Assembly (NCBI GenBank): GCA_023480735.1
Contig: JAMCXB010000049.1
Span: 1-60,950 of the forward strand
Source of the DNA: Bacteroidota bacterium
GTDB lineage: Bacteria > Bacteroidota > Ignavibacteria > Kryptoniales > JAKASW01
Length of the DNA: 60,950 nucleotides
Direction of reading: 5' to 3'
The translations under genes were made by a program, and so were the position numbers. Under the pieces are notes generated by a model that had not been told where the DNA came from, ran no database searches, and was given only the letters and a program-made list of their open reading frames with translations. Below, in pieces: positions 14,914 through 57,810 of this stretch (the stretch's first letter is position 1; each line of letters starts with the position of its first letter).

Positions 14914-16269
14914 TTAGTTCCTTTTTCCCACGAGTACCAATCCGGCTCCGCCTATTCCGCCTGAAACCGTTTGACCGACTGCAACAATCGTGTTGCCCTT
15001 AACCGCAACGCCGTATAGCTGGAGACTCGGAGCACTGATTTGGTTCCGGCAATTGAACCACCTTGATCCGTTGAAATGGAGCACAATCCCGGAGCCGACC
15101 GCAAATATGTCGTTTGGGCCTGTGCCCCGAATCGCCTCTAGGTAAACCGAAGGGACGTTCATGATGCGCTCCCATGGCTCATTTAAGTCCATTGACTTGT
15201 AAAGCCCATCTCCACAGACGTACCACTCCCTCCCGTTTGCGCTCCAGACGCCGACGATACTGGTAGCAGGAAGCCCTGCTGTCCGTAACATGGTTGTCTG
15301 TGTTCTAGAGAGCTGCAGAACCGCGACACCATTGTCAGTGAACTGGTCCGAGGCTACTGCCAATACCTGTGATTCACGTGATGTCGAATCAGAGACACCC
15401 CAGACGTCGTGGATGTCGAGGTTGGTTCCACTGGAAAGTATCCGCCAAGAGTAGCCGTCATACACAGCAAGCCCTCCCGCACGTCCAACCGCGAAAACGT
15501 GGCTCGGGTCGACGCCCCACATTCTGTAGATGTCGAAACCAGTTGGTGACTCAGTGCATATAGGCTCGGACTGCAAAGTGCCATTCCAGGGAACTATCTC
15601 ACTATTAGTCGCTATCCAGATATTTCCTGAAGACCAGGGGAGAACAGCCCAGGAGGCAGAGACACTCTCGAGGCTCTGTCCACAAAACACGTAGGAGAAA
15701 ATTTGCTGTAGTTGCCAATCTCCGCCATTCCACCCCACAAGGTTATAAACCGAATATCCGTTTACTGAGGAATCCTTAACGGCAATATCTCCCACCGCCC
15801 AAATGTCACTGTCGTTTATGATTGCGACATCATTTAGCATGGAGCTTCCGGCTGTCCCTCCGAATGTGTATGTCTGCCACGTGAAATTATTGCTTGTCGT
15901 GTCCAGTGTCGTAATTTCTAGCGGTAAGCTCGTGTCAGACACCTCATTGTTTACAAGTCTGTATCCCTTGTACCTGTAAGTCCGCTCAGGCTGTGCCGCC
16001 GTGTCTATCATCACTGTGTCTGTGCCGGAAAATGTTCCGGTCAGAACGGTGTCTCCATCTCTCGTTATCCTAAACTGCGCACCGCTATTAGCTGTCTGTT
16101 GACCGCTGAAGGCTACCTTCAACCATACCTCCGTACATGTCACATAGTCCGCCGTGAGTTGCATGTTTCCAGTGATATGCGGGCCTGTCGGTGAAGAAGT
16201 GCAGCTGAAGGAAAGTGTTGCAAGAGTGGCTAAAAGGAGTGAACGTTGAAGCAAATTGTGCTTATCCAT
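14914..16269 (-). CDS. Propeller-type lipoprotein of the SPTGP family (intact paralogue)
   Basis: 451 residues. The signal peptide ends in a lipobox, LSFSC, followed by TSSPTGP, so it is probably lipidated and membrane anchored. Residues ~65-125 resemble a fibronectin-like domain (FRITRDGDTVLTGTFSGTDT, then YRLVNNEVSDTSLP). The rest has propeller-like repeats around a W-A-V-G core: DIWAVGDIAV, YRMWGVDPSHVFAVGRAG, HDVWGVSDS, DIFAVGSGIVLHFNGSRW and LYGVAVKGNTIVAVGQ. The function is unknown. A paralogue at 56653-57810 shares the signal peptide, the lipobox region and the 5' leader. The gene is preceded by a double palindrome and a sigma-54-like promoter (16424-16537), so it is probably under sigma-54 control. 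Confidence 0.75.
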   Translation of the reverse strand: MDKHNLLQRSLLLATLATLSFSCTSSPTGPHITGNMQLTADYVTCTEVWLKVAFSGQQTANSGAQFRITRDGDTVLTGTFSGTDTVMIDTAAQPERTYRYKGYRLVNNEVSDTSLPLEITTLDTTSNNFTWQTYTFGGTAGSSMLNDVAIINDSDIWAVGDIAVKDSSVNGYSVYNLVGWNGGDWQLQQIFSYVFCGQSLESVSASWAVLPWSSGNIWIATNSEIVPWNGTLQSEPICTESPTGFDIYRMWGVDPSHVFAVGRAGGLAVYDGYSWRILSSGTNLDIHDVWGVSDSTSRESQVLAVASDQFTDNGVAVLQLSRTQTTMLRTAGLPATSIVGVWSANGREWYVCGDGLYKSMDLNEPWERIMNVPSVYLEAIRGTGPNDIFAVGSGIVLHFNGSRWFNCRNQISAPSLQLYGVAVKGNTIVAVGQTVSGGIGGAGLVLVGKRN

Positions 16270-16423: not shown

Positions 16424-16537
16424 GACAAACCCTATGCCGGCCCAGTTCCTTCTTATTTTGAACGGAAAGAGGGAAATCGGTTTAGGTTTTCCAGGATTTC
16501 GGGAAGTAGTTCGGTCAGCTTTCCGGTTTTCTGGAAA
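16424..16537 (-). promoter_or_regulatory. Sigma-54-like promoter with double TTTCCAG palindrome
   Basis: Reading the minus strand, two imperfect palindromes occur: 16520-16537 (TTTCCAG AAAA CCGGAAA) and 16488-16505 (TTCCCGAAATCCTGGAAA). Their centres are 32 bp apart. The first G of a -24-like GG (16438) lies 58.5 bp beyond the second centre, in CGGCATAGGGTTTGTC (16424-16439): GG, 10 bases, then GT where GC is the consensus. The palindromes and their spacing recur at 43.9 and 56.3 kb. The target is the lipoprotein gene starting at 16269. Confidence 0.6.
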
Positions 16538-36346: not shown

Positions 36347-37702
36347 TCAAAAGACTATCGTAAGCACTGTTTTTTCATCGGGTTGAGACCATACGCTGAT
36401 CAAGGCATGGTGCAAATGCAGTATCTGGCGGGAGAGACTTAACCCGATTCCGGAACCATTCTCTCTCGTAGTAAAGAACGGGATGAAAATCTTCTCCTGC
36501 ACGTCTTTGGGAATCCCTGATCCGTTGTCCTCTACGCGTATACTTATCTTTCCCTTTTCTTCAAGTTGAGCCGACAGGTTAATCTGTCCGCCTGTCTTAC
36601 CATCCAGAGCCTGGATGGAATTCATGAGAAGGTTGAGAAGTACCTGCTCCAGCAAGTCCGGATCTGCCGTTAGCTCGAGCGACTGAGGATTAACGTTGGT
36701 TGTGAGGCTTATGCCATTTTCGTTTACAGCCGACCTGACGAGCTGTTCCACGCGAGAAAACAACATCCAGATTGGGAAAATCCTAAACTTCGGATTCGGG
36801 ATATGCGTAAGAGTCCTGTAAGAATTGACGAAACGAAGCAGCCCCTCACTTCTGGCCTCTATAGTCCGCACTGCAGTTTGAACGTCTTCAAAAGCCGGTG
36901 GGACAGACTCTCCGTTCTCCCGGGATTGCGAGTGCGTGTCGGACAGAAGCTTGTTCGCGGTCGAAGCCAGCGACGCTATCGGAGCGATTGAGTTTACAAT
37001 TTCATGCGTCAATACCCGAATCAAATTCTGCCAGGCGTCGAGTTCTATCTCTTCCAGTTCACCTCGCATGTCCTGTAACGACGCAAGTGTATAGCTCACT
37101 TCTCTCATTCTGAATCCGGATATCTGTATGGCAAGCCGCACCGAGACGTTGCTGCTCTCTATACGCACAAGATTCCTCTTTCGTGGGTTCGTACTCGCGA
37201 GCGCCTCGAACAGATCGTTGCTTATCGGCCTGAGCTCTCTCACGTTCTTGAGCTGCGCCACTCCGAGTAACCGTTTGGCAGCCCGGTTTATCATATCGAT
37301 CTTTCCATCCTGCCGGAAGACAATCAGACCGACGGTGAGTTGTTCGACGACAAACTGGAAATATTGAAATTGATCTTCGGTTTCAACTTTCATCTCCTCG
37401 AATCTCTGAGCTATTCTGTTGAGGGTCCTGTTCAGTTCATCGAATGCTTTGCTCTGCCTGGTCATGCTGAAAGTCTGCGTGAAATCAGCCGCCTCGACGG
37501 CTTCCAGAAATCTGGCCAGGTTCCGGTTTTTCTTCTCGATCCATCGTATGAAGGAGAAAACCTGGTACAACGCCAGAATGCCCATGAGTGCGGCCATCTC
37601 GTACAAACTAGAATGGAAAAGGAGGTAGGTAAATAACGAAATAGTCACGGTCATCAACAATGTGCGCGACGCTGTGGCCAGCCGGAAACGGTCGAGGGTC
37701 AT
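36347..37702 (-). CDS. Membrane sensor histidine kinase (NtrY/AtoS-like), partner of the next regulator
   Basis: 451 residues. Two hydrophobic segments near the N-terminus ([17 protein letters not shown] and [16 protein letters not shown]) leave almost no periplasmic loop. A linker and a PAS-like domain (~120-190: [20 protein letters not shown], then [11 protein letters not shown]) are followed by the phosphoacceptor box [18 protein letters not shown]. The HATPase domain has [40 protein letters not shown] and [18 protein letters not shown]. It lies 81 bases after the stop of the sigma-54 response regulator gene on the same strand, so the two form a two-component pair. The lack of an external sensor domain suggests it senses the membrane or a partner such as the divergent ABC transporter. 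Confidence 0.92.
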
Positions 37703-37783: not shown

Positions 37784-39169
37784 TCATATTCCGTACTTCT
37801 TGATTCTTCTGTAAAGAGCAGTCCTGGTCATACCGAGTTCCTTTGCCGTTTCGGTAACGTTTCCGTTATGCTTATTTATTGTCATTTCAATGTGCTTTTT
37901 CTCGACTTCGTCAAGCGAATGATCGGGGAGCACTCTATCCACATGCGATGTTATAGTCGACCTGAGAATCATTTCCTCGGGCCGTAGAGTATCGGAATCG
38001 CTTAATATCACGGCTCGTTCTATGACATGCTGCAGCTCTCTGACGTTTCCCGGCCAATGGTATCCGCCTAACGCTCTCATACTCTCCGAAGACACCCGGA
38101 TGCCGGGCTTTTGGTACTTCCTGCCGTAGAGATGTACGAAATGTTCAACCAACAAAGGGATGTCGTCCACCCGGTCGCGCAGAGGAGGCAGGTTTATCTC
38201 CACCGTGTTTGTCCTGTAGAGGAGATCTTCTCTGAATCTCTTCTGTACCACCATTTCATGGATCGGCATATTCGTAGCTGTGATAAGTCTAATGTCGATC
38301 GGACGTGATCTGTCGGAGCCCACTCTCGTAATCTCGCGCCTCTCGACTACAGCGAGCAGCTTGACCTGGAGGGAAAGTGAGAGGTTTCCTATCTCATCAA
38401 GGAAGAGCGTACCTTTGGACGCGATCTCAAATCTGCCCATTCGTTCGTTCCTTGCACCCGTGAAGGCTCCTTTCTCATGCCCGAAGAGCTCGCTTTCAAA
38501 GAGGGTTTCGCTTATGGCGCCCATGTCGACAGCGATAAAGGAATTGTCGGCTCTGCTTGAGAAGCGATGTATGGCACGGGCCACCAGCTCTTTGCCGGTA
38601 CCATTTTCACCCAGAATCAGTATATTCGTTTCCGTTCCCGCTACTTTCCGTATCGTTTCAAATATATGCAGCATCGCGGTTGACTTGCCGATTATGTCGT
38701 GAAAAGGCTGATCGAGGTCGGCGCTGAGTACTTTCTCCCGGTTGCGGGACGCGGCGAGTTCCACCTGAGACTCCCTCAGCTTCAGGGCGGATGAGAGAGT
38801 CGCGAGGATCTTCTCGTTTTGCCACGGCTTAACGACGAAATCTGTTGCACCTTCCTTGATAGCTCGTACCGCCGTTTCAATGTCGCCGTAGGCCGTTATC
38901 AATATTACGATGGCATTGGGATCGATCTTAAGAATCCTGTTGAGCCATATGAATCCTTCTTCGCCCGTCGTCGACCCCTTTGCAAAGTTCATATCCAGGA
39001 ATATCACATCGTACGATATTGTTTTAAGTCGTTTTTCTATATTATGTGGATCTCTTTCGGTTTCCACCAGCCTAAGATGCGACTTGAGGAGGAGGCTAAA
39101 CGCCGTAAGGATGGCAGCATCGTCGTCGACAACCAGAGCACTGCCGTGTTTTTCAGAATTCGGAATCAT
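37784..39169 (-). CDS. NtrC-type sigma-54 response regulator
   Basis: 461 residues from the ATG at 39169 (MIPNSEKHGSALVVDDD); a longer frame to 39235 looks artificial. Domains: receiver ~8-125, with the phosphoacceptor Asp in DVIFLDMNFAKG; AAA+ ~150-390, with Walker A GENGTGKELVARAIH, the sigma-54 contact loop HEKGAFTGARNERMG and Walker B TLFLDEIGNL; Fis-type HTH at the end (NVTETAKELGMTRTALYRRI). It is phosphorylated by the adjacent kinase and activates sigma-54 promoters. The likely target is the divergent ABC operon, whose upstream region has two identical-pattern GTGT-N11-ACAC sites and a -24/-12-like promoter. Confidence 0.93.
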   Translation of the reverse strand: MIPNSEKHGSALVVDDDAAILTAFSLLLKSHLRLVETERDPHNIEKRLKTISYDVIFLDMNFAKGSTTGEEGFIWLNRILKIDPNAIVILITAYGDIETAVRAIKEGATDFVVKPWQNEKILATLSSALKLRESQVELAASRNREKVLSADLDQPFHDIIGKSTAMLHIFETIRKVAGTETNILILGENGTGKELVARAIHRFSSRADNSFIAVDMGAISETLFESELFGHEKGAFTGARNERMGRFEIASKGTLFLDEIGNLSLSLQVKLLAVVERREITRVGSDRSRPIDIRLITATNMPIHEMVVQKRFREDLLYRTNTVEINLPPLRDRVDDIPLLVEHFVHLYGRKYQKPGIRVSSESMRALGGYHWPGNVRELQHVIERAVILSDSDTLRPEEMILRSTITSHVDRVLPDHSLDEVEKKHIEMTINKHNGNVTETAKELGMTRTALYRRIKKYGI

Positions 39170-39273
39170 GCATAAATCTAACAATCCCTCCCTGATAATG
39201 CGAACCCCAGAAACCACGCGAAACCTTCTCTCCAAACGTACACGCCGCTCTCACTTCCGGCATCTGTTCGGTC

Positions 39274-39416: not shown

Positions 39417-40121
39417 ATGATTCGAATCAGTAATCTCAAGAAAATTTATAGGACCGATGAGGTCGAAACGGTTGCAGTTGCCAGTGCAAACTTACGTATC
39501 GACTCCGGTGAATTTGTCGCAATTATGGGACCATCAGGATCCGGCAAGACGACGCTGCTCACAATACTCGGGCTCCTCGATAGTCCCACAGAGGGGGAAT
39601 ACTATTTCCTTGGACATGAGGTATCGAGATATTCCGAGAAGCAGCGTACTGTTCTTCGAAGAAAGAACATCGGATTTGTCTTTCAGAATTTCAACCTGAT
39701 AAATGAACTGACAGTCTACGAAAATATTGAGCTCCCGCTTATATACATGGGGTTGGCATCCTCCGAGCGGAAAAACATGGTAATGGAAATCATGGAGAAG
39801 ATGCGGCTTACCCCGAGGCGGAACCACTTTCCTAAACAGTTGTCGGGAGGGCAGCAGCAACGAGCTGCCGTCGCCAGAGCCATCGTCGGAAAACAAAAGC
39901 TGATACTGGCCGATGAACCCACGGGGAATCTTGACTCCAGAAACGGCGATGAAGTGATGAATCTCCTTGCTCAATTGAATGAGGGCGGAGCTACTGTTGT
40001 CATGGTGACACACTCGACCGAGTACGCCAGCTGGGCCAATCGGATAGTGCAGCTGTTCGACGGTCATGTGGCCAATGAGAATATTACGGAAGGGACACGG
40101 AGTGTTTTGGAGCTACGTTAA
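39417..40121 (+). CDS. ABC transporter ATP-binding protein (LolD/MacB type)
   Basis: 234 residues with a complete nucleotide-binding domain: Walker A GPSGSGKTTLLTILG, Q-loop region FVFQNFNLINELTVYENIELP, signature LSGGQQQRAAVARAI, Walker B KLILADEPTGNLD and H-loop VMVTHSTEYA. The LolD/MacB group powers mechanotransmission-type transport or extraction across the envelope, using an FtsX-like permease rather than a channel. It is the first gene of an operon with the permease (overlapping) and a sigma-54 activator, downstream of a sigma-54-like promoter. Confidence 0.95.
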   Translation: MIRISNLKKIYRTDEVETVAVASANLRIDSGEFVAIMGPSGSGKTTLLTILGLLDSPTEGEYYFLGHEVSRYSEKQRTVLRRKNIGFVFQNFNLINELTVYENIELPLIYMGLASSERKNMVMEIMEKMRLTPRRNHFPKQLSGGQQQRAAVARAIVGKQKLILADEPTGNLDSRNGDEVMNLLAQLNEGGATVVMVTHSTEYASWANRIVQLFDGHVANENITEGTRSVLELR

Positions 40122-42486
40122 GACCATCTTTAGAAGTATCTCGAGCTCCAAGGTTTACTTCTTCATCAATATTGCCGGTCTGACAATAGGGTTCACGGTT
40201 TTCACACTTATAATGCTGTTTGTTTTGAATGAGTTTAATTACGACACGTTCAACAAAAGGGCCGACCGGATATATCGCGTTGTAGAGATTCAGAACCCTC
40301 CGGGCGCGCGGGTGCAGCAGGTTGCCATCACGATGCCGGAACTCGCTCCGGCTTTGAAGAGAGAGTTTCCGGAGATAGAGGACGCCGCCAGATTCATCCC
40401 ATGGTCTACAGCGCTTTGTCACAACGGCGGAAAGCGATTCTATGAAGAGGGACTGTTCTTTGCCGATTCGAGTATCTTTAAGATTTTCACGTTCCATTTC
40501 GTCGAAGGCAGTGCATCCGCGGCATTCGACGGGCCTTACAGTGTCGTAATCGATCAGTCGACCGCCAGGAAGTATTTCGGCAATGCCAACCCAATCGGCA
40601 AATTCATAAATATCGATGCGGACCTTGCTCAGAGCGCGTTTCAAGTCACCGGAGTGATCCAGGACTTCCCCCAAAACTCTCATCTACACTTCAACATGAT
40701 TGCATCACTTGGTGCACTTGAAAGACATTCGGAACTATTTAGAGGATGGACGAGCAATGACGTGGTTACTTATGTTCTTCTGAAGAACGGTCGGTCTTCC
40801 GACGTGGTTCAGAGGGAGCTCCCAAGGTTTCTCAAAGCCAACCTCCCACAAAACATCTGGAGCGGCTTAAAAATGTACCTGCAGCCTCTCGGAAGCATTC
40901 ACCTATACTCCGGCCATATACTTTACCAGGTCAATTACGACAAGGGCAACATCGAGCACGTCAGGTTGTTCATCATGATAGCGTTGTTCGTGATTATCCT
41001 TGCATGTATAAACTTCATCAATCTGACGACTGCCCGCTCTGCTATCAGGACGAGAGAAGTGGGAATCCGCAAACTCCTCGGATCGTTTCATTCACACCTT
41101 ATCTATCAATTCATTGGAGAATCGATTCTACTCTCCTTAATCGGCCTCCTTATTTCCCTTCCGATAGTCGAGGCGCTGCTCCCCACCTTTAACTCCATGA
41201 TGGACGGCCGGATAATTGTCTCTTACAACAATCAGTGGCCGTTTCTCCTCATGCTTGCTCTAATCGCGGTCACCGTGGGCTTCATCGCGGGAGTCTATCC
41301 CGCTTTTTACCTGTCTTCGTTTCGACCGGTGGACTTACTGAGGGGAAGGTTTTCATCGAGCAAGAAGGGGATCCTACTGAGGAAAGCGCTGATCACATTG
41401 CAGTTCAGCATAGCCATCGGACTCGTGACAGGAACGGGCATCGTAGTCGACCAGATGAATTACATCTACAACAAACCCTTAGGTTTCAACCAGAAGAATC
41501 TGATGTACATTCCCTTGCGGGACACTGAGTCCAGAAGCAAGATTCCACTGATTAGCGAGCGGCTTCTTACGGATCCAAGGATACTTTCAGTCTCAGCAGG
41601 GGAACTGACCGGATCAGGCGGAACACAGAGGGCAGTAATAATTCCCGAGACAAACGGTCAATCTCGTTTGATTGTAAGAGAATCTTATGTTGACTACGGC
41701 TATGTCAGGACAATGGGTATGAAGATGGCTGAGGGCAGGGACTTTTCCAGAGAGTTCCCATCCGACTCGTCATCTGTAATTATCAACGAGACGATGAGGA
41801 AGACTCTTGGCTGGAGGAATCCAGTTGGGAAACAGATTCAAATGGGCAACGGAGAGATTTTTTCGGTGATTGGTGTAGTAAAGGACTTTAACTACTTCTC
41901 CCTGCAAAACAAGATCGATCCTCTTGTTATGTGGCTGAGACCAAACAAGTGCCAGTACTTAGTCGTTAGAGTCGCTCCGCAAGATATGGGATCTACTACT
42001 GACTTTATTGCGAAGACATGGAATTATCTGATGCCGCATCAGCCATTTGACTATGGCTTCCTGAGTAACTATCTGGATAGTCAGTATGGTAATGAGGTCA
42101 AGAACGAACACCTTCTTGCACTCTTCTCTTCGGTGGCGCTCCTTGTCGCTTGCTTAGGCCTCTTTGGACTCACGCTTTACACGAGCGAACAGCGGACCAA
42201 GGAAATCGGCGTGCGAAAAGTCCTTGGCGCTTCAGTCTTCAGTATAGTTCTGATGTTGTCCAAAGAATCGATCAAGCTCGTCATGATTGCCGGCGCCGTA
42301 GCATGGCCGACGGCTTACTTTTTCATGACCAAGTGGCTTCAGAATTTCGAATACAAGATTACTATCAACGCATGGGTGTTCATCATTTCGGGATTGATTG
42401 TCTTCCTGACTGCCATGCTCACATTGAGCTTTCAGGCAATTAAGGCAGGTCTTTCAAACCCTGTGAATGCCCTAAGATATGAATGA
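40102..42486 (+). CDS. FtsX/MacB-family ABC permease
   Basis: 794 residues from a GTG at 40102 with GGAAGG 8 bases upstream; this overlaps the ATPase gene by 20 bases. An ATG at 40066 would add 12 unlikely residues. The first half has a TM helix (YFFINIAGLTIGFTVFTLIMLFVL), a large periplasmic MacB_PCD-like domain (to ~residue 250) and three TM helices with the FtsX motif TARSAIRTREVGIRKLLGS. The second half repeats the pattern, ending TSEQRTKEIGVRKVLGAS plus hydrophobic segments. This double-unit permease is common in Bacteroidota and is often called a peptide or macrolide exporter by homology. Position next to a peptide-maturation cassette makes peptide export an attractive idea, but no fusion protein or outer membrane channel is present. 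Confidence 0.9.
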   Translation: MFWSYVKTIFRSISSSKVYFFINIAGLTIGFTVFTLIMLFVLNEFNYDTFNKRADRIYRVVEIQNPPGARVQQVAITMPELAPALKREFPEIEDAARFIPWSTALCHNGGKRFYEEGLFFADSSIFKIFTFHFVEGSASAAFDGPYSVVIDQSTARKYFGNANPIGKFINIDADLAQSAFQVTGVIQDFPQNSHLHFNMIASLGALERHSELFRGWTSNDVVTYVLLKNGRSSDVVQRELPRFLKANLPQNIWSGLKMYLQPLGSIHLYSGHILYQVNYDKGNIEHVRLFIMIALFVIILACINFINLTTARSAIRTREVGIRKLLGSFHSHLIYQFIGESILLSLIGLLISLPIVEALLPTFNSMMDGRIIVSYNNQWPFLLMLALIAVTVGFIAGVYPAFYLSSFRPVDLLRGRFSSSKKGILLRKALITLQFSIAIGLVTGTGIVVDQMNYIYNKPLGFNQKNLMYIPLRDTESRSKIPLISERLLTDPRILSVSAGELTGSGGTQRAVIIPETNGQSRLIVRESYVDYGYVRTMGMKMAEGRDFSREFPSDSSSVIINETMRKTLGWRNPVGKQIQMGNGEIFSVIGVVKDFNYFSLQNKIDPLVMWLRPNKCQYLVVRVAPQDMGSTTDFIAKTWNYLMPHQPFDYGFLSNYLDSQYGNEVKNEHLLALFSSVALLVACLGLFGLTLYTSEQRTKEIGVRKVLGASVFSIVLMLSKESIKLVMIAGAVAWPTAYFFMTKWLQNFEYKITINAWVFIISGLIVFLTAMLTLSFQAIKAGLSNPVNALRYE

Positions 42487-43601
42487 AAAGGAACATCATG
42501 GATACGTCAGCTTTAACCATCGTTTTCGCCTCGACGGCGAGCGTCCTGTCCGGCACTTTCTGCAACGCAGCGATTCATTTAATTCCCGGCTTCGCCCACG
42601 CCTCACATTGGCTTGCGTCGAATTTGGCTGTCATCGGCCTCGCTTTCCCCGTGGTGCGAAATGGCGCTGTGCAAAGAATCTATGAGCGAGCCCGAAAGCT
42701 CTCCAAATCCGATTTGCCTATGCTGATTACAGGCGAAACGGGAAGTGGGAAGGAGATCCTGGCAAGGTATGTACATGAGAATTCCCAGAGAAGCTCAAGC
42801 GGAGGCTTCGTCGCCATAAACTGTGCTGCAATCCCGGATAACCTGTTGGAGAGCGAGCTCTTCGGATATGTAAAAGGAGCTTTCACCGATGCACGCAGCG
42901 ATAAGACCGGCCTCTTTGCGATCGCAGACGGCGGTACCCTCTTCCTGGACGAAGTGGCAGAGATGAGCCTGTCAGTACAGAAGAAATTGCTGAGAGCACT
43001 GGAATATCAGGAGTTCTATCCCGTCGGTTCCGTTGCCCCGAAGAAAGTCAAATTCAGATTGGTATGTGCGACGAGTGAAAACCTCGATCAAATGGTCAAG
43101 ACCAAAGCCTTCAGGGTAGATCTGTACCACAGAATCCACGCTTGTGAGTTAACCATCCCACCCCTGCGGGAACGGATAGACGAAATTTCGGCCCTCGTCA
43201 ACCATTTCCTTGGTATTAACGGCCGAGGAGATATCGTCGTATCTCCAGAAGTGATGGAGATATTTTCATGTTACGGTTGGCCCGGTAACATAAGGGAACT
43301 GAGAAATGTCGTTGAATATGCTTTGGCTGTGCTTGATGAGAAAGAAAATCTGATAGAGGTCGGTCATTTACCCGAAGGAAAGTTTGATACATTAAATTGC
43401 AGAATGCTTCGCGGTGAAAGTCTCAATCTCAGGGAAAAAGAAAGATGTTTCAAGGAAAATCTTGTGGAAGCTGCGATGACCGTATGTTCAGGTGACTACA
43501 AGTCCGTGGCGAAATCATTGGGAACCTCAAAGAGTACAGTTTACGAATTGGTCGCGGGGAAATTGTCGAAGCAGAATGTATCGGCGACTGTTGAAGAGTA
43601 G
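42483..43601 (+). CDS. Sigma-54 activator without receiver domain (orphan enhancer-binding protein)
   Basis: 372 residues (367 from the ATG at 42498, which has AAGGA upstream). The first ~60 residues are short, partly hydrophobic, and match no sensory domain. The AAA+ domain has Walker A ITGETGSGKEILARYVH, the loop GYVKGAFTDARSDKTG (GAFTDA instead of the usual GAFTGA), Walker B GGTLFLDEVAEM and WPGNIRELRNVVEYAL. A Fis-like HTH closes it (YKSVAKSLGTSKSTVYELV). Its ATG overlaps the permease stop (ATGA), so it is made together with the transporter. With no receiver it is probably active whenever produced, or controlled by a partner. It is my best candidate for the protein binding the TTTCCAG palindromes downstream. 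Confidence 0.9.
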   Translation: MKRNIMDTSALTIVFASTASVLSGTFCNAAIHLIPGFAHASHWLASNLAVIGLAFPVVRNGAVQRIYERARKLSKSDLPMLITGETGSGKEILARYVHENSQRSSSGGFVAINCAAIPDNLLESELFGYVKGAFTDARSDKTGLFAIADGGTLFLDEVAEMSLSVQKKLLRALEYQEFYPVGSVAPKKVKFRLVCATSENLDQMVKTKAFRVDLYHRIHACELTIPPLRERIDEISALVNHFLGINGRGDIVVSPEVMEIFSCYGWPGNIRELRNVVEYALAVLDEKENLIEVGHLPEGKFDTLNCRMLRGESLNLREKERCFKENLVEAAMTVCSGDYKSVAKSLGTSKSTVYELVAGKLSKQNVSATVEE

Positions 43602-43764
43602 TCTCTCCTTTCCGAAATAATCCGGGCATGCCGCGAGTCGCCGGTCTCGCTGCGTGCTGTCAGCGGTCTCTCACCCGGAAGCAAGAAGAGGATACGCCCA
43701 TCCCAAGCTCTTATCTCAATCTAAAGGCGTTGGAGGAACCCGAAATCCTATCTTTTCACATTAG

Positions 43765-43783
43765 ATATCGTTGATAACGATAT
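43765..43783. promoter_or_regulatory. Perfect palindrome ATATCGTT-GAT-AACGATAT
   Basis: An 8-bp perfect inverted repeat around GAT in the gap after the sigma-54 activator gene. It looks like an operator for a small dimeric regulator, or a weak stem. It lies about 100 bases upstream of the first TTTCCAG palindrome, so it may add a second control on the maturase promoter. Function unknown. Confidence 0.35.
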
Positions 43784-43875
43784 AACTCCGCCTATGATCC
43801 GATTCTCGGTCATGGTATGGATTTTCCTTCTGTCGGATACCGGCCCTTAGCAAACTAATCCAATTCACTAAATCA

Positions 43876-43989
43876 TTTTCCAGAAAACTGGAAAGCTCAG
43901 GAGTGTATTTTCCAGAATTCTGGAAAATCTACACCCGAATCGCCCAAACCATGAAGTAAAAGCACTTTTTTATTGGCATGAAATTGGCA
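43876..43989 (+). promoter_or_regulatory. Sigma-54-like promoter with double TTTCCAG palindrome (RiPP cassette)
   Basis: Palindrome 1 is at 43877-43894 (TTTCCAG AAAA CTGGAAA). Palindrome 2 is a perfect 22-bp one at 43907-43928 with half-site ATTTTCCAGAA. Centres are 32 bp apart. TGGCATGAAATTGGCA at 43974-43989 has the sigma-54 spacing (GG, 10 bases, GC), with the GG starting 57.5 bp from the second centre. The predicted start lies near 44000, about 25 bases before the maturase ATG. The same arrangement recurs at 16.5 and 56.3 kb. Confidence 0.7.
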
Positions 43990-44024
43990 CTATTAAGAAT
44001 GACTAACAAGCTTGGAGTGTGACC

Positions 44025-45356
44025 ATGAATTACAAAAAGAGCCGTTACAATGTAACGGTCAAGACTGAAGACGGCGCACGTCTCTTCAACGCAAGAACCG
44101 GCGCAATTGTCGAGCTATCCAATTCGGATCCGTTGTTCCCCGGATTCGAGGAAGCCTGGAGACATGAGACATTCCAACTCAGTGATCATGAATGGTTCCC
44201 GGTGTTGAAAGATGCAAGGTTCATAATTCCGGAAGACATAAACGAGATTCCCGACTATATCGCCTCGTTCAATGCCAGGCAGAAGAGCACCGACAGGATC
44301 AGCCTGATAGTGATGCCAACCGAGGAGTGCAATTTCCGGTGCGTGTACTGCTATGAGAGCTTTCAGAAGCCGAAGATGAGCGAAGAAATCCAGAACGCGT
44401 TAAAGGATTACATCTCCAATAATATGGGACGGGTTCAGGGATTCTCGATTGAATGGTTTGGCGGTGAGCCGCTTCTTGGGATGGACGTTATCAGGAACAT
44501 CTCCACACACGCAGTCAGAGCGGCAAATCAATGTAACGCTGCCTTTAGTGCAACGATTACGACAAACGGCTATCTCCTGACACCCGATGTCTTCGAAGAA
44601 GCGGTCAGTGATTGGCGAATACTCCGCTACCAGATTACGATCGACGGTCCGAGAGAATTTCATAATCGGCGCCGAGTCCTCGAATCTGGAGGGCCGACTT
44701 TCGATAAGGTTATCTCAAATCTGCAGCACATCGCAAAATCTGACCATCCGGAAGTCATGTACGTCGTTAGAATGAATGTCGACAGGGATAATCTGAAAAC
44801 CGTACCGGAGTTTGCCCGTATCGTCAAGGATATCGTGGGTGACGACAAGCGGGCTCGATTTTATGTCAGACCTACCTGGGGAAAGAGCCAGTTCGAATTG
44901 CTTACCAACTTCGAAAGCAGAAGCCTCAGAAAGCAGATAGTGGACATATGCGGTGAAGTGGGCTTGTACTTATATGACAGCGATCTCTTTTTAAACCCCG
45001 CGCTGGGGATGTGCTATGCTGCAGATCCGCATTCCCTCGTCATCGGACCGGACGGTTCGGCATATAAATGTACATCTGCCTTTGACCTCCCAGAGAATTT
45101 AGTAGGCCGGCTGACGACCGAAGGGACAATTCAACTTGATGTAAAGAACTTCAGCCTCTGGGTGGAGTCCAGCATCGAAAAATATCCGCAGTGCCGCCGA
45201 TGTGCGGTGCTGCCAATATGTAATTCCGCTCATTGCCCTAAAACAGAGGTTTTAAGGCTAAAGGCAAACGGAGCGGCCAGCCATCCAGTGTGTCCTCCTT
45301 ACAAAGAGGACATCAAGATGTTTGTAGAAAACGCACTTCAAGAGGAATTAGGCTAG
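44025..45356 (+). CDS. Radical SAM/SPASM peptide maturase
   Basis: 443 residues from the ATG at 44025, which has GGAG 7 bases upstream; a GTG at 44019 is possible. The N-terminal ~85 residues (SRYNVTVKTEDGARLFNART, then GAIVELSN) are of the kind seen in front of many peptide-modifying radical SAM enzymes. The SAM cluster motif is CNFRCVYC (C102, C106, C109), followed by EWFGGEPLLG. The C-terminal SPASM region offers further cluster ligands: LGMCYAADP, GSAYKCTSAF, YPQCRRCAVLPICNSAHCPK and HPVCPPYKED. Such enzymes install thioether or carbon-carbon links in ribosomally made peptides. Its likely substrate is the 35-residue Cys-rich peptide encoded 75 bases downstream. Expression is probably from the sigma-54-like promoter at 43974. 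Confidence 0.9.
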   Translation: MNYKKSRYNVTVKTEDGARLFNARTGAIVELSNSDPLFPGFEEAWRHETFQLSDHEWFPVLKDARFIIPEDINEIPDYIASFNARQKSTDRISLIVMPTEECNFRCVYCYESFQKPKMSEEIQNALKDYISNNMGRVQGFSIEWFGGEPLLGMDVIRNISTHAVRAANQCNAAFSATITTNGYLLTPDVFEEAVSDWRILRYQITIDGPREFHNRRRVLESGGPTFDKVISNLQHIAKSDHPEVMYVVRMNVDRDNLKTVPEFARIVKDIVGDDKRARFYVRPTWGKSQFELLTNFESRSLRKQIVDICGEVGLYLYDSDLFLNPALGMCYAADPHSLVIGPDGSAYKCTSAFDLPENLVGRLTTEGTIQLDVKNFSLWVESSIEKYPQCRRCAVLPICNSAHCPKTEVLRLKANGAASHPVCPPYKEDIKMFVENALQEELG

Positions 45357-45430
45357 AATCTCTCTTGAAGATGCTTTGAGATGTCGATTTGATGCTAGAT
45401 CATAAAACAAGAAGAAGGGAGGTGAACCGA

Positions 45431-45538
45431 ATGAAAGTAGTAGTTGCCCCTAAGGTGCAGGTACAGCAACCCGATGCCGAACAGCAACCAGGTACAAACT
45501 GCCTCGGCTGCAACGCATTAATTTGTGTACCCGACTGA
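45431..45538 (+). CDS. Putative precursor peptide of the radical SAM maturase (RiPP-type)
   Basis: A 35-codon frame with an excellent ribosome binding site (GGGAGGTGA, 45418-45426, about 5 bases before the ATG). The N-terminal ~19 residues start MKVVVAPK and are rich in Val, Gln and acidic residues, as a leader could be, with no Cys. The C-terminal part is PGTNCLGCNALICVPD, with three Cys (24, 27, 32) in a C-x2-C-x4-C spacing. It lies 75 bases after the maturase stop and is followed 7 bases later by a strong hairpin. No signal peptide is present. I know no described family with this sequence. The call rests on size, position, the Cys-rich core and the ribosome binding site. Cys thioether or similar cross-links are inference. 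Confidence 0.75.
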   Translation: MKVVVAPKVQVQQPDAEQQPGTNCLGCNALICVPD

Positions 45539-45545
45539 AACGCCG

Positions 45546-45578
45546 GTGCACACAACCGGCAATGACGGTTGTGTGCAC
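45546..45578 (+). terminator. Perfect 13-bp hairpin directly after the precursor gene
   Basis: GTGCACACAACCG pairs perfectly with CGGTTGTGTGCAC around the loop GCAATGA. It starts 7 bases past the precursor stop. There is no T run, so it is probably an RNA-stabilising or partial-termination stem that raises precursor mRNA over what follows, as in other RiPP operons. Confidence 0.65.
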
Positions 45579-45706
45579 GAACTTGTTGGTTTACAAAAAC
45601 GCGAGCCAGAGACTGTCCCGGCGAGTGCAGGCACCCTTAGTGTTCCGGGAAATATGAATTTGCATTTGGGCGAGCTTGTTTTTTCTCGCACGCCGGCTTG
45701 GACCGA

Positions 45707-45744
45707 CGGCCGAGACAGCTCTGGCAGAGCGGGGGCCGGTTTTT
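45707..45744 (+). terminator. Intrinsic terminator of the maturase-precursor unit
   Basis: CGGCC / GGCCG outer arms enclose an inner stem GCTCT-GGC-AGAGC, and GTTTTT follows. It lies about 170 bases beyond the precursor stop and before the next genes on the same strand. Confidence 0.55.
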
Positions 45745-45847
45745 GTGACACCTACACTGGAAAGGCAGCATGATTGAAAGGAGAGTAATTTGTGCTGCGC
45801 GCGAAATCCATCGTAGACTTAATAGCCAAGTGAATAGGAGAGACCAA

Positions 45848-46120
45848 ATGTACTCTATACTGAGATGCTTTGAAGAACGGAAATGGGAAGAAAAGACACG
45901 GCAACAAAGTTGTGTTTCGCCTGTGACCGACCCCAACCAAGTTTGGGAAGATCCGATGGATTTTCTGCAATCGAGCATTCGATTCGGGAATCCTTATTGC
46001 ATGTACAATGATGCCATAATAGGGCACATAGAGCTTTCGATTAAACGAAGTAACAATGCACCAATTAGACATAGCACCTTGTCTGCCGTGTCCAATTTCG
46101 TTTTTCGCCCGGCAAATTAA
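45848..46120 (+). CDS. Unknown 90-residue protein between the peptide cassette and the hybrid kinase
   Basis: Chosen start ATG at 45848, with AGGAGA 6 bases upstream; the frame also extends to an ATG at 45770. The product opens MYSILRCFEERKWEEK, contains three Cys (RCF, QSCVSP and NPYCMY) and is charged and soluble, with no signal peptide or membrane segment. I recognise no family. It follows the terminator of the precursor unit and precedes the hybrid kinase, so it might belong to the kinase unit. Confidence 0.4.
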   Translation: MYSILRCFEERKWEEKTRQQSCVSPVTDPNQVWEDPMDFLQSSIRFGNPYCMYNDAIIGHIELSIKRSNNAPIRHSTLSAVSNFVFRPAN

Positions 46121-46184
46121 TTGTTGTCAGATTCATCGCTTCATCAACAAGAGGAAGCGACTGAAAAAACAGAAGGCAGAATGT

Positions 46185-47468
46185 ATGTGTCATGAAGGAA
46201 AGAAGATATATGTGAAAGAAAATCCGGTCGGGAAGTTCGATCACCCTGATCATCCCCCCTCTGAAGGCAGACCCATGGCGGATGAGACCGGTCAGCGGCA
46301 CTGGGAGGACCAACTCCTCCAGTCACAGAGGCTAGAGGCGTTGGGAACGCTTGTCGGTGGGATCGCTCACGACTTCAACAACATCCTGAACGTTATCACC
46401 GGACATGTATCACTCATGGAAAGATGGCGTGAGAACCCGGAACGGTTCGCGAAGAGTTTCGACGCCGTCAAGAAGGCGACTGACCGCGGCGCCCAAACGG
46501 CCAGACAGCTTCTCACATTTTCGCGGAAAGCTGAAGTCGTAACCGAACATGTCAAAATAGGCGATGTCATAGAAGAACTCACGGACCTTCTCAGGGAAAT
46601 CTTTCCCGAGAAGATCCACTTCAGCATAAAGATCGAGCCGGATATCCCGATAATCCTGGCCGACTCGAACCGGATACATCAAGCCTTGCTCAACCTTTGC
46701 ATGAACGCCCGCGATGCTATGCCGCTCTCCGGGACAATTGCCATCTCTGCAAAGGGTATCGGGCGTGCGGCCCTGAACGGGCGCTTTCGAGGGGCAGAGG
46801 CGGACAGGTACGTACAAGTTGAAGTGTCGGATTCAGGTTCAGGAATAAAGAAGGAAGAGCTAGGTCACATTTTTGAGCCGTTCTTCACTACGAAGAGGAA
46901 CGGGCGAGGCACCGGTTTGGGGCTATCGGTCGTCGATTGGATTATGAAGGCCCACAATGGATTTGTGGACGTTGAAAGCAGAGTCGGTACGGGTACAGTA
47001 TTTTCTCTTTATTTCCCGGTCCTTCCTCAAACGGCAGGGGTGCTGTCGGGAGAAAAGGATAGGGTCGAGTCGCCAAAGGGTGGCGGCGAAGTGATTCTTG
47101 CCATTGAGGATGAGGAACCCCTTCGAGATTTCCTGAAGACAATTCTCGAGGAAAGCGGGTACAGGGTCCTCTTGGCGTCGGATGGAACAGAAGGCCTCCA
47201 GACCTACATGGAACACCTGAACGACATCGCTCTTGTACTTCTTGACATGGGGCTTCCCGAGATGAGCGGCGCGGAGGTTCTTGCGAAACTTGTGTTGTTG
47301 AATCCCCAAGTGAGGGTGATTTCAGCAAGCGGCTATGTTCAACCGGAGGTGAAAGCCGATGCCTTCGAGACCGGAGCGTTGGATTTTCTGCCGAAACCGT
47401 ACCTGGTGGACGAGCTGCTTATGAGGGTTCACCGTGCGCTGCGGGCAGATGCGGAGACAACGACATAA
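46185..47468 (+). CDS. Soluble hybrid histidine kinase with C-terminal receiver
   Basis: 427 residues from the ATG at 46185 (GAAGG upstream); ATGs at 46056 and 46275 are alternatives. Only ~45 residues precede the kinase core, so no sensor domain is visible. HisKA has QSQRLEALGTLVGGIAHDFNNILNV, with the phosphoacceptor His. HATPase has NRIHQALLNLCMNARDAM, VEVSDSGSGIKKEELGHIFE and FFTTKRNGRGTGLGLSVVD. The receiver (~305-425) has EVILAIEDEEPLRDF and the phosphoacceptor Asp in LVLLDMGLPEMSG. Kinases of this build usually have PAS domains in front; here they are missing. It may relay signals linked to the neighbouring sigma-54 circuit, but the orphan activator there has no receiver to accept phosphate. 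Confidence 0.88.
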   Translation: MCHEGKKIYVKENPVGKFDHPDHPPSEGRPMADETGQRHWEDQLLQSQRLEALGTLVGGIAHDFNNILNVITGHVSLMERWRENPERFAKSFDAVKKATDRGAQTARQLLTFSRKAEVVTEHVKIGDVIEELTDLLREIFPEKIHFSIKIEPDIPIILADSNRIHQALLNLCMNARDAMPLSGTIAISAKGIGRAALNGRFRGAEADRYVQVEVSDSGSGIKKEELGHIFEPFFTTKRNGRGTGLGLSVVDWIMKAHNGFVDVESRVGTGTVFSLYFPVLPQTAGVLSGEKDRVESPKGGGEVILAIEDEEPLRDFLKTILEESGYRVLLASDGTEGLQTYMEHLNDIALVLLDMGLPEMSGAEVLAKLVLLNPQVRVISASGYVQPEVKADAFETGALDFLPKPYLVDELLMRVHRALRADAETTT

Positions 47469-56274: not shown

Positions 56275-56387
56275 TTTCCAGAAAACCGGAAAGCTGAAAG
56301 GGCCAGTTTCCAGAATCCTGGAAAATCTGCACCCATCTTCCCCTTTTCAAGCCGAAATAAGGGACTCGCCATGGCATGATCTTTGGA
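56275..56387 (+). promoter_or_regulatory. Sigma-54-like promoter with double TTTCCAG palindrome (second lipoprotein locus)
   Basis: Palindromes at 56275-56292 (TTTCCAG AAAA CCGGAAA) and 56307-56324 (TTTCCAGAATCCTGGAAA) have centres 32 bp apart. TGGCATGATCTTTGGA (56372-56387) has GG, 10 bases, GG, with the first GG starting 57.5 bp from the second centre, the same as at 43.9 kb. The target is the lipoprotein gene at 56653; a MITE now lies between them. Confidence 0.65.
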
Positions 56388-56474
56388 GAACGTTAAGTCA
56401 GCAACGACCAACGTCTGTGGAGCACGGTCATGAAAAGGTAATGCACCGATTCATTGGCAAATTGGTGATTGAGG

Positions 56475-56652: not shown

Positions 56653-57810
56653 ATGGATAAGCACAAATTGCTCCAGCGTTCACTCCTTCTGGTAATCTCT
56701 GCAACGGTTTCATTCAGCTGCAGGACTTCACCCACAGGGCCGCAGCCGGCAAACAGCGGCAGCGAGTTCAAGATAACCAGAGACGGTGAAACGGTTTTGA
56801 CGGGTAGCCTAGCCGGCACGGACACGGTGGTCATGGACACAACGGCACAGCCGGAGACAGATTACACATACAAAGCATACAGACTTGTAAACGGCCAGGT
56901 TTCCGATACGAGCTTACCGCTTCAAGTGACTACACTAGATACGACCACGCATGATTGGACTTTCCAGTCGTGGACATTCGGTGATGGAAACGGCAGCATG
57001 TTTGACGACGCTTCCATCATTGATGACACGCTTGCGTATGTGGTTGGCGCAGTATACCTGAAGGACTCGACCGGGCAACTTGACCTTCAGCCGTACAACG
57101 TCGCAGTGTGGGACAGGAAGGACTGGAGACTGGAGAAGGTACCCTTTTATTATGAAGGACAAGCGCTATACAATCCGATATATTCACTCCTAGTGTTCAA
57201 CTCCGCTAATGTCTGGTTCGGCACGGCCAGCGTGATTCACTGGGATGGACGCGCTTTTATTCCACAAGATAACTCAGGAGTGTGGGGTCCACACAGAATC
57301 TTCAAGATGTGGGGAACAGGCAGCTCTAACTTTTACATTGTTGGTGACAGCGGTTCAATTGCACGGTACGATGGATACACGTGGAGCAGGGTCACAAGCG
57401 GTGTCTCTTCTACCGTTAACGACATCTGGGGAGTGCCAGACGGGGCGAACGGCGCACCTACTGTGTTTGCAAGCACCTTAACGCAGGGTATCCTCTCATT
57501 GACACCCACCGGTGCAACAAGCGCACTGGATTGGCCCGGTGGAGACATAGGGAGCATTTGGTTTGCCGACACAAACCAGGCGTTCGTTGGCGCGGGCAAC
57601 GGTGTTTACGTCAGGGACATGAGAGGATGGCGACGTGCTTACTATATCCCTCAGTTTGTAAATGGGCTAAGGGGAAGCAACGTCAACAACATATTTGCCG
57701 TAGGCTGGCGGGCGTTTGCTCATTTCAACGGGAGCACGTGGCAAGAATATATGGAATTGATTCCACCACTCTGGATGGCATCCACGATACTTACTACAGC
57801 GTCGTTGTGA
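56653..57810 (+). CDS. Truncated SPTGP-family propeller lipoprotein (damaged paralogue)
   Basis: 385 codons. The signal peptide and lipobox (TVSFSC, then RTSPTGP) and the fibronectin-like region (FKITRDGETVLTGSLAGTDT) match the intact paralogue at 14914-16269, as does the stretch upstream of the ATG. Compared with that protein it lacks a ~30-residue piece right after the lipobox. It loses its own C-terminus after AHFNGSTWQEY, where the reading runs into DNA of the following beta-helix gene in the wrong frame (MELIPPLWMAS to the stop). The propeller repeats up to there look intact (FKMWGTGSSNFYIVGDSG, then VNDIWGVPDG). It may still make a shortened lipoprotein. Confidence 0.6.
   Translation: MDKHKLLQRSLLLVISATVSFSCRTSPTGPQPANSGSEFKITRDGETVLTGSLAGTDTVVMDTTAQPETDYTYKAYRLVNGQVSDTSLPLQVTTLDTTTHDWTFQSWTFGDGNGSMFDDASIIDDTLAYVVGAVYLKDSTGQLDLQPYNVAVWDRKDWRLEKVPFYYEGQALYNPIYSLLVFNSANVWFGTASVIHWDGRAFIPQDNSGVWGPHRIFKMWGTGSSNFYIVGDSGSIARYDGYTWSRVTSGVSSTVNDIWGVPDGANGAPTVFASTLTQGILSLTPTGATSALDWPGGDIGSIWFADTNQAFVGAGNGVYVRDMRGWRRAYYIPQFVNGLRGSNVNNIFAVGWRAFAHFNGSTWQEYMELIPPLWMASTILTTASL

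Follow-up and report, generated by a model that had tools for sequence, protein, structure and literature searches.

A short peptide gene downstream of a radical SAM/SPASM maturase gene

The DNA analyzed here, hereafter the window, is a 60,950-nucleotide (nt) stretch of contig JAMCXB010000049.1 (assembly GCA_023480735.1) from a Bacteroidota bacterium (GTDB lineage Ignavibacteria; Kryptoniales; JAKASW01). It contains a gene for a radical S-adenosylmethionine (SAM)/SPASM peptide maturase and, 74 bases past the maturase stop, a frame for a 35-amino-acid (aa) peptide behind GGGAGGTGAACCGA, the candidate precursor of a ribosomally synthesized and post-translationally modified peptide (RiPP). A sequence-only reading of the window had described the two as a compact cassette, running from a sigma-54-like promoter through the maturase and a three-Cys peptide with a strong ribosome-binding site (RBS) to a hairpin and a terminator. 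The gene pair was borne out, but the conserved block is larger and also includes genes for the ATPase and permease of an ATP-binding cassette (ABC) transporter, a sigma-54 activator and two-component proteins (Table 1). Both the short peptide frame and the maturase gene are real and under selection.

The comparison covered 13 genomes of the genus, our own included; they are related and do not amount to 13 independent tests. Nine loci carry an orthologous maturase (the window and L014 to L021). In L021 (genome G057) the contig stops within the maturase gene, and the other eight loci (the window and L014 to L020) reach past it. L016 begins at the maturase, which leaves eight loci with upstream sequence, window included. 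At all eight loci with 3' flank, a frame of 32 or 35 codons lies 31 to 77 bases past the maturase, starting with ATG in six cases and TTG in two. The frames were located by script through the RBS string GGAGGTGA, and all eight had this RBS. The near-perfect Shine-Dalgarno sequence before the precursor is thus kept throughout; Bacteroidota mostly do without one.

The eight peptides share the C-terminal end C-x3-N-x3-C-x2-[D/E]-stop. Residues M1, K2, P7, K8, V9, C24, N28 and C32 are invariant, D or E at position 35 is kept in all eight and N23 in seven, and positions 25, 26 and 29 to 31 vary. The sequence-only reading had named Cys24, Cys27 and Cys32 as likely crosslink donors. Cys24 and Cys32 are kept in all eight peptides, but Cys27, and with it the Cys24/Cys27 CxxC motif, in seven. 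The deviating peptide (L017) has Leu at Asn23 and Ser at Cys27 and retains Cys24, Asn28, Cys32 and Asp35.

The sequence-only reading had named two grounds for giving up its interpretation: relatives with the maturase but no conserved short Cys-containing frame at this place, or a frame free of purifying selection. Neither applies, since every maturase locus with 3' flank has the frame and selection is seen on it. The ratio of nonsynonymous to synonymous changes (pN/pS), from simple counts pooled over all pairs with gap columns skipped and with synonymous sites near saturation in distant pairs, was 0.19 for residues 2 to 9 and 0.42 for residues 20 to 35, versus 0.86 for residues 10 to 19. Leader and core are under purifying selection. 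On this pattern, the peptide consists of a leader (2 to 9), where the nine-residue N-terminal motif MK-x4-PKV is constrained, a drifting linker (10 to 19) and a core (20 to 35). It is very improbable that the frame is untranslated and has been conserved as an RNA or regulatory site instead. Structured RNA does come after the frame, but the changes in leader and core are biased to synonymous ones, the length of the peptide is shifted by three whole codons in two relatives, and the RBS is present at every locus.

The end pattern was also scanned as a frame of 25 to 60 aa ending in C-x(3-5)-N-x3-C-x2-[D/E]-stop, a form picked after the family had been seen and slightly wider than the family's own. 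Such a frame lies downstream of 8/8 maturases, whereas none turned up when the same regions were mononucleotide-shuffled 4000 times. Among 519 tiles of 250 bp from the loci of seven relatives, four contained it, and all four overlap the relative's own peptide gene. A peptide profile gave one strong match each in eight of the 13 genus genomes (E 1.4e-16 or better), and all other matches there had E 0.22 or worse. No precursor was found in the four maturase-free genomes (best E 0.22, in G085). In 391 genomes of the class, only the eight known peptides and one weak match were detected; the latter (G155, E 3.3e-4) has an internal stop, lies within an apparent regulator gene and was rejected. Neither Pfam (E 0.1) nor NCBIfam (E 10) contained a match to the precursor.

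The maturase resembles RiPP maturases and has a possible leader-binding domain

The maturase open frame extends from 44019 to 45356, and the start conserved among relatives is the ATG at 44025. As the sequence-only reading had proposed, the enzyme carries CNFRCVYC and a full SPASM domain: C102, C106 and C109 (radical SAM) and C330, C349, C390, C393, C399, C404 and C423 (SPASM), ten Cys in all, occur in every one of 36 aligned homologues, of which the window enzyme is one. The maturase thus has the CX3CX2C motif and the SPASM Cys residues that define a radical SAM/SPASM RiPP system. The orthologues read C399-x4-C404, and the consensus including distant homologues reads CGGGC at this place.

Among the best 25 of the 64 NCBIfam models, the maturase reached the cut-off of none. 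The top model was TIGR04463 (rSAM_vs_C_rich; 202.6 bits versus a cut-off of 525, covering 371/438 model positions), followed by Clo7bot (TIGR04334; 169.2 versus 600) and CefB (Cys-every-fifth; 152.8 versus 600). Further scores were 139.7 for FlmE/OhkG, 132.3 for geopeptide, 113.5 for PapB (NF047865, cut-off 340) and 83.4 for the SCIFF maturase model TIGR03974 (cut-off 425). The closest models are all RiPP maturases, and all scores are below cut-off. The cassette works like a radical SAM/SPASM RiPP system that falls below the cut-off of every named subfamily compared.

An AlphaFold2 model of the maturase built from the 36 sequences had a mean confidence (pLDDT) of 87.6 and a pTM of 0.87; a first model from eight close orthologues (pLDDT 56.9) was set aside. 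Residues 1 to 87 were modeled as strands followed by helices (block pLDDT 87 to 94), which is the layout of a RiPP recognition element (RRE). The N-terminal part of the model looks like a leader-binding RRE. A profile search of the PDB with the maturase gave 5wgg as the best match (E 1.2e-22), and a fold search with the model gave 5why/5wgg (E 4.8e-19 to 5.8e-18, TM score 0.65 to 0.69, root-mean-square deviation [rmsd] 8.4 to 8.8 Å). The match to 5why, at E 4.8e-19, spans 456 alignment columns for a chain of 421. The closest solved structure by both profile and fold is that of CteB, the maturase of the SCIFF ranthipeptide CteA, whose layout is RRE, radical SAM domain and SPASM domain. The SCIFF precursor is defined by six Cys, whereas the present one has three. 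In PMC10352776, the paper bearing the title of structure 5why/5wgg is cited for CteB, and this maturase is grouped with those making gamma-thioethers.

The gene pair was found in part of one genus

A maturase search of 294 genomes of the class at E 1e-30 matched ten: our own, eight of the same genus and one with a distant homologue (G054, 27% identity). Within the genus, orthologues are 65 to 92% identical. With a maturase profile, an orthologue was found in nine of the 13 genus genomes and not in G007, G018, G028 and G085. Our own genome holds a single maturase match at E 0.001. Among GTDB contigs, eight close counterparts carry a name, either 'Bacteroidetes bacterium' or 'Candidatus Kryptoniota bacterium', and each comes from a metagenome-assembled genome; it is from this lineage that the precursor family is known. 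The other 12 of 20 loci examined carry distant homologues (27 to 37%), nine of them in Actinomycetota by name. In 395 genomes of the phylum, the maturase profile matched 33; besides our own, these had distant scores (best E 9.5e-55), and the same core was not seen by eye in the flanks of 29 maturase-homologue loci from the phylum.

Short frames also follow several distant maturases. Locus L048 (G118:C102:59960-61174) encodes a distant paralogue, with Clo7bot as its best model (219.7/600 bits), and 72 bases downstream lies MKLIAKPKDEKKILASVSKKASKKKILKEIEAKSECCVNHLCGCSK, whose start MK-x-I-x-x-PK resembles the window precursors. In Catenulispora, Actinoplanes and Streptomyces (L030, L032 and L033), maturases with 32 to 35% identity, a range that includes the Halobacillus enzyme (L031), are followed by frames of 22 to 24 residues with an RBS and the start MTWI[AN]K. 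The Halobacillus maturase is followed by a 42-residue frame with an RBS. The short frames at these four loci end in YGC, CGIC or NNCNC.

The distribution bears on the idea that the product is an intracellular redox or metal-binding cofactor, like PQQ or mycofactocin, with the ABC transporter as an independent stress pump that travels along. One strong copy per genome, a conserved core and the size of the permease family in the genus would suit such a cofactor. We nevertheless consider it distinctly improbable, as the system is present in only 9/13 genus genomes, core positions 22, 25, 26, 29 and 33 vary, and no oxidoreductase was recognized in the conserved block with Pfam or NCBIfam.

A conserved promoter region with paired palindromes precedes the maturase gene

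The sigma-54-like promoter of the sequence-only reading was recovered as an element of the same type at all nine loci, where [T/C]GGCA[T/C]-N7-G-x-A stands 50 to 51 bases before the start codon. The script pattern itself demanded the GG and the first G of the GC; the C of the -12 GC is present at six of the nine loci. With two mismatches, the sigma-54 pattern gave seven matches in the window versus 4.0 expected, and YGGCAYNNNATTGGCA has one exact match there. Because the sigma-54-type match alone is weak, it is the conserved position together with the palindromes that carries the case.

All nine loci have two copies of TTTTCC-N8-GGAAAA, with 0 to 3 mismatches each; relative to the start of the maturase, one lies at -115 to -117 and the other at -147 to -149. 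Their inner eight bases vary among relatives (AGAATTCT, CAAATCTG, GAAATCCC and others). The window has ten palindrome matches at five places versus 0.24 expected. At the level of sequence, the region thus combines the GG/GC spacing, the paired upstream sites and the nearby activator gene of a sigma-54 promoter. From sigma-54-type control and phased enhancers one would expect a product that is regulated and possibly serves in signaling. To our knowledge, such control of a RiPP cassette of this kind is unusual. A full-text literature search joining sigma-54, RiPP and radical SAM found a single paper, an Aneurinibacillus genome survey, which is no proof of absence.

Transporter and regulatory genes form a conserved block with the gene pair

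Table 1. Features at and around the maturase and peptide genes (positions in the window)
Feature	Position	Strand	Support
-24/-12 sigma-54-type promoter TGGCATGAAATTGGCA	43974..43989	+	kept at 9/9 loci
Two enhancer-like palindromes TTTTCC-N8-GGAAAA, 32 bases apart	43876..43927	+	kept at 9/9 loci
Radical SAM/SPASM peptide maturase, 443 aa, N-terminal domain RRE-like	44025..45356	+	Pfam Radical_SAM, 49.8 bits, above cut-off
Strong RBS GGAGGTGA of the peptide gene	45418..45425	+	in 8/8 orthologous loci
Precursor peptide MKVVVAPKVQVQQPDAEQQPGTNCLGCNALICVPD, 35 codons	45431..45538	+	conserved frame, selection
Sensor histidine kinase, NtrB/ZraS-like	36347..37702	-	NCBIfam AtoS/ZraS-like matches below cut-off
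NtrC-type sigma-54 response regulator, oriented divergently to the ABC genes	37784..39235	-	NCBIfam PEP_resp_reg/AtoC/NtrC matches below cut-off
MacB/DarD-like ABC ATPase	39417..40121	+	Pfam ABC_tran; NF038007 DarD, 267.3 bits (below cut-off of 375)
MacB-type permease	40066..42486	+	Pfam MacB_PCD and FtsX, two stretches each
Sigma-54 activator, AAA+	42483..43601	+	Pfam Sigma54_activat, 212.9 bits
Perfect 13-bp hairpin after the peptide gene, not conserved	45546..45578	+	folding
Large stem-loop region before the kinase gene	45601..45745	+	strong folding of 45536-45770 (z -3.7)
Small conserved frame, 90 aa, MYSILRCFEERKW...PYCMYNDAIIGHIEL	45848..46120	+	homologues at same place
Hybrid histidine kinase/receiver protein	46185..47468	+	HisKA, HATPase_c, Response_reg

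In seven of the eight loci with upstream sequence, the gene order is histidine kinase and NtrC-type regulator (divergent), ABC ATPase, permease, sigma-54 activator and maturase; L017 (genome G105) has other genes upstream of the maturase. The hybrid kinase lies downstream in 8/8 loci with 3' flank. Its start at 46185 follows the relatives, and the open frame begins at 46056. The frame between the peptide gene and this kinase has homologues in three of the seven other loci (L016, L019 and L020), and another, starting with GTG, could be read by eye in L015; no NCBIfam match was obtained at E 10.

A permease orthologue with at least 65% identity is present in the same nine of 13 genus genomes as the maturase, and in the four maturase-free genomes the permease paralogues reach at most 42%. 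In G105 and G112 the orthologue is on another contig, in G105 as a 263-aa fragment at a contig end. The activator, in which no receiver domain was found, has an orthologue in seven of the nine maturase genomes, our own included (65 to 81% identity in six of the eight others). In the maturase-free G085, a 51% relative of the activator lies between two permeases of the same family (G085:C60:69257-75098), so that activator and permease may be an older module.

A MacB-type exporter next to a radical SAM/SPASM maturase is also found in the darobactin system (DarA-E). The present ATPase and permease are nevertheless below the cut-offs for DarD (267.3 versus 375 bits) and DarB (105.3 versus 700), and the ATPase scores 219.9 against the bacteriocin export model TIGR03608 (cut-off 254.85). 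Darobactin contains a Trp-Trp ether and a Lys-Trp link (PMC9055067).

The core is predicted to carry thioether crosslinks

We propose that the cassette makes a RiPP from a new Cys-crosslinked, ranthipeptide-like precursor/maturase family and that the product is tightly regulated through sigma-54 and probably exported, with a probability of roughly 0.7. The conserved Cys frame and the selection on it support the RiPP assignment of the sequence-only reading, and the crosslinks are predicted. The computed part of the proposal comprises the gene pair, its conservation and selection, the promoter anatomy and the coinheritance of the permease; from these we infer the match between activator and sites, leader docking, thioether chemistry, pairing, cleavage, export and role.

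Sigma-54 RNA polymerase would cotranscribe the maturase and peptide genes once an enhancer-binding activator, which is most likely encoded by 42483-43601, occupies the two palindromes. On the precursor, the N-terminal motif of nine residues would dock as a strand on the RRE-like domain of the maturase. The radical SAM center could then take hydrogen from side-chain carbons of the conserved Asn and Asp/Glu acceptors, and a SPASM auxiliary cluster would help to link these carbons to the Cys sulfurs. Each Cys would thereby form about one thioether, at a cost of 2 Da per link. Cleavage would then release the core from the leader and the drifting linker, and the coinherited MacB-type ABC transporter would probably carry it out of the cell. 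Our best guess is that the mature peptide has an extracellular role, as a signal or antagonist, which may be sensed via the neighboring two-component genes.

Asn and the terminal Asp/Glu are conserved acceptor-like residues, so a Cys-Asn/Asp ranthipeptide is our first choice. A precedent for the Asn/Cys pattern is NxxcA/NxxcB of Streptococcus orisratti, in which a thioether connects Cys23 with the Asn20 beta-carbon (PMC8326336, PMC11002830). By the published description, NxxcA has Asn-x2-Cys, whereas the present peptide has Asn-x3-Cys and Cys-x3-Asn. Freyrasin, the PapA/PapB product, has six Cys-Asp links (PMC8326336), and the link formed by CteB is of the gamma type and joins Cys to Thr (PMC11002830). 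Like the links predicted here, those of PapA/PapB join Cys to Asp/Glu; PapB takes either acceptor and tolerates varied spacing (PMC9413430). PapA differs in its six Cys-x3-Asp links, compared with three Cys in the present precursor, and in its leader.

The joint absence of Asn23 and Cys27 from the L017 peptide suggests, as a hint from one sequence, that the two are partners. The conserved residues would fit two pairings: C24-N28, C32-D/E35 and C27-N23, or N23-C27 with N28-C32 and C24 otherwise used. This natural two-Cys orthologue without Asn23 and Cys27 makes the pairing directly testable, and the small size of the system (35 residues, one maturase) makes it amenable to simple coexpression.

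Two other chemistries were considered. In a sactipeptide, the Cys sulfurs would be joined to alpha-carbons of other core residues and not to side-chain carbons of Asn/Asp. Radical SAM/SPASM maturases make both kinds of link (PMC8326336), and positions 30 and 31 are mostly hydrophobic. Such a product seems unlikely, since positions 25, 26 and 29 to 31 vary whereas N28 and [D/E]35 are kept in 8/8 and N23 in 7/8 peptides, and the nearest solved structure is of a maturase grouped with gamma-thioether makers. Alternatively, the enzyme could form a C-C or C-N crosslink, epimerize residues or change the backbone, with the Cys residues free or metal-binding. Known C-C linkers use residues of the Trp, Tyr, His or Lys type, and none of these is conserved in core residues 20 to 35, which makes this alternative quite improbable, even though radical SAM enzymes catalyze many such reactions (PMC9062424), CxxC is kept in 7/8 peptides and Cys24 shows no paired loss. 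Noncoding conservation, a free metal-binding microprotein and a cofactor precursor are not favored over the Cys-crosslinked RiPP.

Several points weigh against the Cys-crosslinked, exported RiPP. The peptide product and its links are predicted from genes, the proposed acceptors derive from conservation in eight sequences of one genus, and Cys27 is missing in one orthologue. Because the rmsd to 5why is large (8.8 Å), the modeled domain arrangement differs or is uncertain. The maturase of G105 lacks the activator and the transporter as neighbors, and a search at E 1e-90 gave no activator orthologue in either G105 or G112, both of which are fragmented assemblies. The permease family is large (4 to 12 matches at E 1e-100 in each of 12 genomes among the 13 of the genus), so a role of the permease for the peptide is argued from coinheritance, and the genomes compared are not independent. 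In addition, no leader peptidase and no outer-membrane or adaptor protein was recognized in the conserved block with Pfam or NCBIfam.

Palindrome copies precede lipoprotein-like genes

In our own genome (2.81 Mb), the palindrome with up to one mismatch occurs at six places, five of them in the window; a reversed control gave none. Two of the five are beside the maturase gene, two before the gene at 56653-57810 (+) and one before its paralogue at 14914-16269 (-), where a weaker second palindrome follows 32 bases on. These copies lie at 56275-56390 and 16488-16537, and the two paralogous genes encode lipoprotein-like proteins starting MDKHxLLQRSLLL. A sigma-54-like element comes after the site at 56275. 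The copies before the two lipoprotein genes give a hint that these and the maturase gene may form a small regulon.

Elsewhere, a palindrome pair stands before a lipoprotein homologue in G124 and a single one before another in G112. Of 30 lipoprotein homologue loci, four (L128, L130, L142 and L143) have a palindrome with up to one mismatch, three of them as a pair 32 bases apart; the other 26, a few of which have little upstream sequence, have none. Palindromes before lipoprotein genes thus occur in three genomes only. With up to two mismatches, the palindrome is also found in the maturase-free G028, and the reversed control gives single matches in 3/13 genomes.

A more far-reaching proposal, which we regard as doubtful, joins an Asn/Cys ladder to this regulon. 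In a new ranthipeptide family, the two N-x3-C/N-x3-C units of five residues each (residues 23 to 32) would interlock with Cys24-x3-Asn28 and Cys32-x2-Asp/Glu35 into a compact stapled core, each Cys taking one carboxamide or carboxylate acceptor and neighboring rings sharing the same dozen residues. The activator would act via the two enhancers, whose spacing of 32 bases amounts to about three helical turns, and peptide and secreted lipoprotein would belong to one peptide-signaling circuit. If this is true, the peptide and a surface lipoprotein form one regulon. We know of no such circuit from a Bacteroidota-type organism, although the literature was not searched exhaustively.

Palindrome pairs were also seen near a receiver-like gene (..DENEIV.., by eye) at G112:C255:2049 (L093) and G124:C4:119910 (L096), perhaps another target of the activator.

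RNA structures downstream of the peptide gene

The hairpin of the sequence-only reading is a perfect one and begins 7 bases past the peptide stop, but it is not conserved across the eight loci and was rejected as a part of the cassette. Compared with shuffled sequences, the 60 bases after the stop gave a fold z of -4.5 in the window, -2.4 in L014 and between -1.5 and +1.2 in the other six loci. No Rfam match was obtained in 43600-46250 at E up to 1. Similarly, the T-tailed terminator could be traced to a candidate at 45719-45734 (+) with a 5-pair stem and a T tail, but it is weak as scored, and 43600-46100 holds four terminator-like hits versus 2.4 expected. Of the 12 other genus genomes, two have DNA similar to 45585-45760, one of them over just 30 bases, and other relatives have differently shaped large stem-loops at the same place. 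The stem-loop region before the kinase gene is possibly a terminator or an mRNA-stabilizing structure.

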